This document shows, in pieces, positions 13,193 to 52,453 of a DNA stretch of 64,000 bases; within the stretch, counting starts at the first letter, position 1; every line of letters starts with the position of its first letter. The stretch comes from Saccharothrix espanaensis DSM 44229 (GTDB lineage: Bacteria; Actinomycetota; Actinomycetes; Mycobacteriales; Pseudonocardiaceae), in contig NC_019673.1 in the NCBI RefSeq assembly GCF_000328705.1, positions 8,071,501-8,135,500 on the forward strand. Reading direction: 5' to 3'. Both the position numbers and the translations under genes were made by a program. The notes below the pieces were generated by a model, which searched no databases, had not been told where the DNA came from, and saw only the letters and a list, made by a program, of their open reading frames with translations.

Positions 13193-13315
13193 GTGTTCTC
13201 CCCGTATGGCCTGCGCGCAGCGAACCATGGTTTTCCGGGGGGTGCAAGCACGCTTTTCGCTTGCACCCCCCGGAAAACCATGGTTGTCTCCGACCGGGCC
13301 ATACGGGGAGAACAC
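13193..13315. repeat. Structured intergenic element, copy A
   Basis: Nested inverted repeats. The outer stem is 19 bp (13193-13211 with 13297-13315); the inner stem is 27 bp and perfect (13223-13249 with 13259-13285) around a 9-base loop, ACGCTTTTC. Between the stems are the asymmetric unpaired strands TGCGCGCAGCG and GTCTCCGACCG. Copy B at 52173-52306 has the same plan and the same inner conserved segments, but other stem sequences. It lies between two convergent genes. Short open frames inside it are on both strands and are probably not genes. Whether it acts as RNA or DNA is unknown. Confidence 0.9.
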
Positions 13316-13588
13316 GAGGCTCTTCCCTCCCCCGGAGGCCTGCCCAGCGGCGAGCGTCGCTTTTATCTTTTCTTCCCTCCCACCCAGAACACCCACCCAA
13401 TGCCCTGACCTGCCCCAACGCAGGAACTCCCAGCACAGCCGCGATCACAGGCGCGGCCGCCGGCCCCCATCTCAATTATCCCACAGGACACCGACACCAG
13501 GCCGCCGCCAGCTCCCGGCAGCTCGACCACCCCGCCGAAACCGCCCCCACTGCCGCAACCAGATCCCGAAAGCCCCCGACCGCCGCAG
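13316..13588. other. C-rich intergenic stretch after copy A
   Basis: Together with the terminator and copy A this fills the 450-bp gap between the peptidase and devR stops. It holds a pyrimidine-rich patch (13370-13382) and short near-repeats around 13560-13610 ending at the devR stop codon (AGATCCCGAAAGCCCCCGAC and a similar AGATTCCGGAGGCTCCCGAC). No gene is supported. Confidence 0.6.
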
Positions 13589-52067: not shown

Positions 52068-52172
52068 CCACAACGCACGGCCTCACCACAGCCTCGACCG
52101 AGAACCTGGGTCCATGGTGCTCAACCGCGCAAGCCGCACCACCCAGTGCGCGCAGCGCACAATCCACCTACC
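52068..52172. other. Intergenic lead-in to copy B
   Basis: With copy B and the terminator at 52454 this makes the 424-bp gap between the adenosyltransferase and DUF2550 genes. The stretch holds a small G/C hairpin (TGCGCGCAGCGCA at 52147-52159) and nothing gene-like. Confidence 0.6.
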
Positions 52173-52306
52173 GCGTCGTGTCATCCCCGTATGGCCCGCG
52201 CGCCAGCGAACCGCGCTTGAGCAGGTAGTGCAAGCACGCCCTTCGCTTGCACTACCTGCTCAAGGGTGGTTGTCTCCGACCGGGCCATACGGGGATGACA
52301 CGACGC
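52173..52306. repeat. Structured intergenic element, copy B
   Basis: Outer stem 24 bp (52173-52196 with 52283-52306); inner stem 20 bp and perfect (52216-52235 with 52245-52264) around loop ACGCCCTTC. Relative to copy A the outer stem has two changed positions, each matched on the other arm, and most of the inner stem is replaced by unrelated but fully paired sequence. GTGCAAGC / GCTTGCAC around the loop, CAGCGAACC and GGTTGTCTCCGACCGGGCC are unchanged. It again lies between convergent genes. Confidence 0.9.
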
Positions 52307-52453
52307 CCACCGCACCACTCATCCTTGGCGGCTCGCCCGTCCGGCGAGGACTCTTTTCAGCATTTCCGCAGGTCGACGCGCCTTGACCGGACCAACCAAC
52401 GGCAAGCGATGACCGGCCGATCAGCCAGGCCAAACAGCACCAACGACCCAAAA

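Follow-up and report, generated by a model that had tools for sequence, protein, structure and literature searches.

A dispersed palindromic repeat family of Saccharothrix with an inner stem that changes mostly in paired steps

How can two hairpins in one genome keep paired stems when the sequences of those stems differ? The question arises from a 64,000-nt stretch of contig NC_019673.1 of Saccharothrix espanaensis DSM 44229 (the window, whose numbering gives all positions of copies A and B), in which a sequence-only reading had described a two-copy element and had offered selection on structure, or copying of one arm from the other, as the explanation. We found both copies at the places given, A at 13193-13315 and B at 52173-52306. 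The outer stem is perfect in each (19 bp in A, 13193-13211 paired with 13297-13315; 26 bp in B, 52173-52198 paired with 52281-52306). The inner stem runs without a mismatch for 27 bp in A and for 20 bp in B and has the apex GCAAGC-ACGCYYTTC-GCTTGC, and the two compensated outer-stem changes are present (TTCT/AGAA in A, TCAT/ATGA in B). The parts of the two copies are as follows.

13193..13213, + strand: copy A, 5' arm of the outer stem (GTGTTCTCCCCGTATGGCCTG), DNA minimum fold
13214..13222, + strand: copy A, left mini-hairpin CGC-GCA-GCG with a GNA-type triloop, formed in the minimum fold and open in the centroid
13223..13249, + strand: copy A, 5' arm of the inner stem, 27 bp, perfect, DNA fold
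13250..13258, + strand: copy A, apical loop ACGCTTTTC, DNA fold
13259..13285, + strand: copy A, 3' arm of the inner stem, DNA fold
13286..13294, + strand: copy A, right mini-hairpin GTC-TCC-GAC, DNA minimum fold
13295..13315, + strand: copy A, 3' arm of the outer stem, DNA fold
13332..13371, + strand: copy A, 3' module, a terminator-like GGCCTGCCC-AGCGGCGAGCGTCGCT hairpin with a T-rich tail (stem 13346-13361 and tail TTTATCTTTT in a simple terminator scan); like modules follow other copies
13452..13484, + strand: optional downstream block GGCCGCCGGCCCCC..ATTATCCCAC, found after part of the copies
52146..52160, + strand: copy B, mini-hairpin GTGCGC-GCA-GCGCAC on the 5' side of the core, from sequence and RNA fold
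52173..52198, + strand: copy B, 5' arm of the outer stem, 26 bp, DNA fold
52199..52208, + strand: copy B, left mini-hairpin CGC-GCCA-GCG, DNA fold
52209..52235, + strand: copy B, 5' arm of the inner stem (6 bp, one G.G mismatch, 20 bp)
52236..52244, + strand: copy B, apical loop ACGCCCTTC, DNA fold
52245..52271, + strand: copy B, 3' arm of the inner stem, DNA fold
52272..52280, + strand: copy B, right mini-hairpin GTC-TCC-GAC, DNA fold
52281..52306, + strand: copy B, 3' arm of the outer stem, DNA fold
52325..52358, + strand: copy B, terminator-like 3' module TTGGCGG-CTCGCCCGTCCGGCGAG-GACTCTTTTC (stem 52332-52348 and tail GACTCTTTTC in the simple terminator scan)

The element consists of a core of ~130 nt with flanking modules, roughly 200-250 bp overall. 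Around the core there is a 5' mini-hairpin in some copies (the GTGCGC-GCA-GCGCAC type seen at copy B also precedes several others), then a short linker and, on the 3' side, a hairpin that ends in a T-rich tail. There are two main versions, with ATGAC or AGAAC flanks, that are distinct in the outer stem and the 3' module, and copies are arranged either singly or as face-to-face pairs. A downstream block, GGCCGCCGGCCCCC..ATTATCCCACGCMCCACCGACA, is also present at 11 further loci of the S. espanaensis genome (37 scanned) and lies 86-162 bp past the core in nine measured copies; the ATTATCCCAC motif occurs once in the window.

The copy number of two did not survive a search of the genome. The S. 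espanaensis chromosome is a single contig of 9,360,653 bp with dnaA at 526-1011, and is circular according to the main text of the genome paper (PMC3469384). The motif CCCCGTATGGCC occurs 29 times per strand of this genome, as compared to 0 times for a reversed-pattern control, mostly in inverted pairs 97-98 bp apart. With a covariance model built from 28 intact copies (R1), we found 77 matches over both strands, which collapse to 39 loci that include A and B. When R1 was run on a set of 40 genomes of relatives, nine were positive and all nine belong to the genus. A broader search (R2) matched 44 of 390 genomes of the family, in 8 of 46 genera, and 18 of 25 genomes in the genus, under strict filters and with at most eight candidates scored per genome, so that its copy numbers and absences are not firm. 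Named relatives among the matches listed are S. tamanrassetensis, S. algeriensis, S. obliqua and one Lentzea species, whose element keeps the apex but differs in the outer stem; isolated matches listed for other phyla look like chance. The element was not matched in plasmids or phages at blastn sensitivity, and a single match in viral_contigs does not have the element around it. There were 294 non-overlapping matches, 283 of them long, and after Lentzea, locus-end-cut and duplicate fetches were dropped we had a working set of 237 distinct copies with 204 distinct cores from nine genomes of the genus.

The two strands between the outer and inner stems had been described as fixed and unpaired. 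Folding predicts otherwise: in the single-stranded DNA minimum folds of the canonical strands of A and B, each strand forms a 3-bp mini-hairpin, which gives a four-way junction (a cross). With RNA rules, neither B nor a further copy, L017, has mini-arms in its minimum fold, and the two strands pair across instead. The RNAalifold consensus of 28 copies is a single long stem in which the two strands are paired with each other, and the cross-strand pairs of this rival fold show no two-sided change. In the DNA centroid of A, the mini-arms are open. On the complementary strand, DNA rules give a less stable cross for B and a minimum fold that is not a cross for A. The DNA folding z-scores are –14.4 for A and –15.1 for B, and 0/200 shuffles are equally stable.

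We wrote a junction model by hand with an outer stem of 24 bp, a left arm of 3 bp, an inner stem of 27 bp and a right arm of 3 bp. Tested on 38 copies drawn from nine genomes, the model has 97.7% of its 2140 cells paired; both sides have changed in 35 of the 57 pairs (284 such cells) and 0/500 shuffles reach the observed level, which is very strong covariation; when the partner is shifted by 1-3 columns, pairing falls to about 35-42%. All three pairs of the left arm are formed in 204/204 distinct cores, with switches of pair type at two of the three (156 CG/48 GC and 123 GC/81 CG), and the right arm, whose loop is made of pyrimidines, has a compensated change (UA/CG). In the left arm the loop is, with few exceptions, G-N-A (GCA, GGA, GAA, GTA) or GCCA; GNA triloops are unusually stable in DNA. 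Because the alignment of the 237 copies drops insertions (keeplength), gaps in the right arm are misplaced, and pairs 101-110 and 103-108 seem open in 48 and 43 of the 204 cores, where inspection by eye shows a GCC-TCC-GGC arm. Over all 57 pairs, 10718 cells are Watson-Crick, 338 are G.T, 43 are A.C and 436 are other, with 93 gaps. Twenty cores of other lineages, which have outer stems unrelated in sequence, were folded under RNA rules; a full cross forms in five of them (G234, G232, G017, G004 and G011) and the remaining 15 form a long stem with the arms across or open.

The description of arms that always pair is nearly, not strictly, correct. Over 20 bp of the inner stem, the 204 distinct cores have 103 different 5' arms; 179 cores are perfect and 25 have at least one non-Watson-Crick pair. 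Over 22 bp of the outer stem, 74 of the same cores are perfect and 130 have at least one non-Watson-Crick pair. When we compared nearest copies within species and counted each pair once, we found 93 two-sided and 39 one-sided changes in the inner stem as compared to 12 two-sided and 99 one-sided changes in the outer stem (counted from each copy, inner 107 and 47, outer 15 and 129); all counts of one- and two-sided events come from comparing related copies, with no tree, and nearest-neighbor and identity counts omit 15 copies that have no neighbor within 12 differences. Runs of two-sided change are one pair long in 86/95. In copies with the rest of the core identical, the unique events are five two-sided and one one-sided in the inner stem and 0 two-sided and 11 one-sided in the outer stem (Fisher p=0.00097). 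Two of the five inner two-sided events are flips (AT-TA, CG-GC), which a G.T step cannot bridge, and one further near-identical pair differs at two unpaired inner sites. Among 91 two-sided inner changes, 47 are G.T-bridgeable, 28 are transversions and 16 are flips; this bridgeable share is only slightly below the 61.0% given for two-sided changes in rRNA in section 8 of PMC8794818, so that the measure alone is no proof of arm copying. Taken together, these data favor a process in which one inner arm is often copied from the other, its partner across a loop of 9 nt. Template switching might also leave inverted loops behind; we saw no inverted loop among the 237 apical loops (229 forward, 2 forward with a chance reverse match, 6 with another apex).

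The mismatches that remain are not symmetric between strands. One-sided events comprise 55 G.T, 19 A.C and 42 other mismatches, and among rare mismatches there are 42 G.T and 18 A.C (p=0.0027), in counts that omit outer pairs 2 and 3 and inner pairs 37 and 43 (poorly paired ends, common G.G) as well as the mini-arms; the same pairs and arms are left out of the counts for nearest copies and for otherwise identical copies. This asymmetry points to selection on the canonical strand on top of arm copying, and strand-specific mutation during transcription could add to it. Each of the two explanations that had been offered at the outset, selection on structure and copying of one arm from the other, has support.

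Sites were compared across genomes with two readable flanks, of which there are 21 for the L058 site, 21 for site A and 19 for site B. The element is present in some genomes and absent from others at all three orthologous sites, with flanks too diverged to read target duplication. At the L058 site, the element is found in G000 and G015 in the same orientation, G016 has one that has diverged (28.8 bits with nhmmer, with a better match on the reverse strand), no further element match appears at E 0.1 with nhmmer, and gaps are shorter than 60 bp in G010, G006, G023, G009, G004, G011 and G013. A hairpin of G010 at this site resembles the outer stem (17/20 by eye) and may be a collapsed copy. At site A, the element is present in G000 and as face-to-face pairs in G015 and G010, and diverged forms were read by eye in G004 and G011. 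At site B, it is present in G000, in G006 (opposite orientation) and in G023, and as a pair in G016; G015 has only a simple hairpin and the 3' module (by eye). Simple perfect hairpins lie at element-free orthologous sites at L264 (G010), L265 (G006) and site B of G015.

Orientation agrees in 10/13 pairs of single copies with a common neighbor gene (p=0.09), in 10/14 (p=0.18) when one pair whose common neighbor is taken for an IS transposase is included, and in 6/7 (p=0.125) where both neighbors are common, which is suggestive of vertical inheritance and is not proof of it. Mean core identity is 0.78-0.87 within species and 0.70-0.83 between species. Of seven orthologous pairs, three fall below the mean similarity of paralogues in both species and one (L034/L128) lies above it in both; concerted evolution of the copies is uneven. 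L015 and L039, which are 2.6 Mb apart on the circle, carry the same two insertions inside the element, one of IS30 and next to it one of IS4, and are 98.3% identical over 2.9 kb, from ~30 bp before the core motif to ~80 bp past it; gene conversion or a joint move would produce such a pattern.

We found no dedicated transposase. Among proteins that neighbor the copies in the S. espanaensis genome (68 listed, 49 scanned), we found no family in two neighbors and no transposase among 25 of 74 families, and the IS30-like and IS4-like elements are insertions into the repeat. Four S. espanaensis copies (L015, L024, L025 and L039) contain IS30-like elements, always at GGGTGG/TTGTC, a point two bases away from the predicted junction; the one that was scanned has rve and HTH_38 domains, and this IS is apparently site-specific for the repeat. 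IS4-like insertions lie at CCGTATGG in the outer stem of L036 (2006-3530), L026, L015 and L039 of the same genome, with a duplication of ~8-10 bp by eye. The IS4-like element has six copies in the genome, and the four that were examined are inside repeats.

Where do the copies lie with respect to genes? Copy A has a TAP-like hydrolase gene and, on the other strand, a response-regulator gene as neighbors; copy B has a cobalamin adenosyltransferase gene and, on the other strand, a DUF2550 gene. Among 117 units with both neighbors within 800 bp, 62 are between convergent, 48 between tandem and 7 between divergent genes, as compared to 28, 91 and 61 of 180 element-free gaps in the same loci (chi-square p=2e-13), and units are thus depleted between divergent genes. 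This count dropped 24 units with a gene more than 800 bp away and 6 that overlap a predicted gene, and neighbor genes were taken from a GC-frame rule that is mis-set at least for the left neighbor of copy B. All two-element units that were counted (58/58) face each other. None of the 39 loci lies between 3.51 and 6.785 Mb, which is 35% of the chromosome on the terminus side; the main text of the genome paper describes core genes clustered around oriC and species-specific genes farther off (PMC3469384), so that the element family follows old, conserved DNA. The canonical strand is on the leading-strand template at 26/39 loci (p=0.053), a weak trend that is not convincing as a replication-strand preference.

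We regard it as somewhat more probable than its negation that the element is a dispersed non-coding palindromic repeat family of the mobile, REPIN/MITE-like kind with copying between its inner arms. Transposition is inferred from copy number and patchiness, since no empty site with a target duplication has been seen. Because the fold is kept while stem sequences are unrelated between genera, the unit that is retained would be the folded canonical strand, as single-stranded DNA or as RNA. A point mutation in one arm of the inner stem would soon be copied into the other arm, by replication template switching or by repair inside the extruded hairpin, and such copying would make the inner stem change by whole base pairs. 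Copies within a genome would exchange sequence, so that the core would be partly species-specific even at shared sites. Insertion or survival would occur mostly at gene ends, and an effect on the host, if any, would be at transcript 3' ends. A stronger version, which we hold to be doubtful, is a selfish element defined by its fold: the cross with its GNA-loop arm and the 3' hairpin would persist across about eight genera while copying between arms rewrites the stems pair by pair, and the junction, by mimicking a recombination intermediate, would drive spread and homogenization through host junction processing without a transposase.

Compensatory changes are normally taken as proof of selection on RNA structure, and the element could instead be a structured RNA at gene 3' ends (terminator, stabilizer or small RNA) in which ordinary compensatory mutations keep the pairing. 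The terminator-like 3' module on the canonical strand, the preference for G.T over A.C on that strand, the location at gene ends and the RNA folding z-scores (–13.4 for B with flanks and –11.5 for L017) all fit with such an RNA. However, single copies between tandem genes are 13 sense and 13 antisense, which means that the gene next to the element can do without the canonical transcript; among the 91 two-sided inner changes, 44 are not passable via G.T; paired steps are seen in the inner stem and not in the outer stem; and no Rfam family is matched. At gathering score there are 0 Rfam matches in the whole window, and a search of eight loci with E up to 5 gave 12 miRNA/sRNA matches that are all below gathering (best 54.7 bits vs. 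a cut-off of 124). On this balance we consider a structured RNA unlikely, though a serious contender. A promoter scan near A or B found none, and none is expected by chance either. Spread of a structured RNA by reverse transcription would account for the strand preference and the RNA-like fold, and reverse transcriptase genes are present in five of the nine R1-positive genomes (G009, G010, G016, G019 and G023); RVT_1 is, however, unmatched in the other four (G000, G006, G015 and G021), which speaks against a reverse transcriptase as common partner; we rate this route as extremely improbable.

Recognition as folded DNA would explain the same strand preference. Integron attC sites and IS200/IS605 ends, which are recognized as folded single strands whose structure is conserved and whose paired parts vary, offer an analogy to the element. 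If it were a recombination site of this kind, a recombinase would read the cross and pairs of copies would carry cargo. The conserved structure with variable sequence fits, as does a gene of the creatininase family enclosed by paired copies in S. obliqua; against this, no recombinase is linked to it as yet, no cleavage site was identified, wide-gap face-to-face pairs number only three among the fetched loci, and plasmids and phages gave no match, so we judge a recombination site to be improbable. A REPIN proper, moved by a Y1 (RAYT, IS200/IS605-type) transposase that acts on single-stranded hairpins, would share with the element a kept length and hairpin capacity, a paired variable spacer, inverted pairs and intergenic position, as far as the available text of PMC3116915 and PMC3733652 goes. 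Y1 genes (PF01797, six-frame search of 24 genomes) are present in G012, G014 and G029, and in both G012 and G014 the R2 search finds a single match, a diverged one. The R1-positive genomes among those 24 (G000, G006, G009 and G010), however, all lack PF01797, which contradicts a Y1/RAYT transposase as the mover in these four, and the copy profiles show, by eye, no unpaired GTAG or CGTC end tag; we therefore rate a REPIN proper as very improbable. A search for Y2 transposases gave no match, and its control also matched nowhere.

The mobile, REPIN/MITE-like reading nevertheless has its closest known kind in these palindromic repeats, and the view that no known family has this plan needs to be qualified. 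In REPINs, according to the available text of PMC3116915, the length and hairpin capacity of the spacer matter and compensatory changes are common. Like the element, REPs and REPINs are described as dispersed, intergenic and palindromic with a compensated hairpin spacer and as dimers (often heterodimers), and the element is a multi-copy intergenic palindrome with a paired variable spacer, as the REPIN definition asks. It differs from REPINs in several respects: its core measures ~130 nt and may form a four-way junction, a terminator-like module follows on the 3' side, Y1 transposases are missing from the four R1-positive genomes that were checked, a conserved unpaired end tag is not visible by eye, and its hosts belong to the Pseudonocardiaceae. 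Its junction and 3' module, together with the absence of a Y1 gene in those four genomes and of an end tag, place it outside the REPIN family as defined; it works like a REPIN population, which is a likeness and not membership. S. espanaensis copies do have a CGTC, but this continues into the stem and is not conserved in the other species (by eye). For CGTC-type REPs, the available text of PMC3733652 reports no dedicated transposase, and the words "Actinobacteria" and "Saccharo" do not occur in it.

MITEs and ERIC-like long palindromic repeats are non-coding, multi-copy, patchy between species and located near gene ends. The element is the same in these features, in a comparison with the general description of such repeats and not with a consensus; as compared to a MITE, no terminal repeats in common with a transposon were found, and IS4- and IS30-like elements were seen only as insertions into copies (four of six IS4 copies examined). 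Template switching produces compensatory mutations in rRNA hairpins in which both arms change together, according to the available text of PMC8794818, and this mutational route resembles the joint arm change seen here; that case concerns rRNA genes, whereas the element is a dispersed repeat with 103 different inner arms.

Since the inner stem changes in paired steps and the outer stem mostly does not, the element has a built-in control, and its hundreds of natural copies offer a way to test how far paired changes stem from the DNA hairpin itself. The element may also give rise to spurious open reading frames and to false structured-RNA calls. In the main text of the genome paper (PMC3469384), "repeat" and "palindrom" have 0 occurrences, and this abundant repeat seems to be unmentioned there; we found no description of the element in the literature searched, a claim that goes no further than that search.

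Three wide face-to-face pairs contain no autonomous relative that could be a parent of the element. In S. obliqua, the two copies at L130 (1370-2523) are ~0.9 kb apart and enclose the creatininase-family gene; in S. algeriensis, the two copies at L200 (184-1332), also ~0.9 kb apart, enclose a transposon remnant and an ORF (by eye); and the S. espanaensis pair, 4.6 kb, has ordinary-looking genes between its copies (by eye). A sub-lineage has the same outer stem and arms with a different inner stem and apex, GTGTCAAGGG..ACCCGG..CCCTTGACAC, and its copies, in locus coordinates, are as follows.

L156, 1680-1822: sub-lineage copy, S. algeriensis
L213, 1682-1824: sub-lineage copy, S. algeriensis
L257, 4946-5088: sub-lineage copy, S. 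algeriensis
L191, 7004-7146: sub-lineage copy, S. algeriensis
L198, 5979-6120: sub-lineage copy, S. tamanrassetensis
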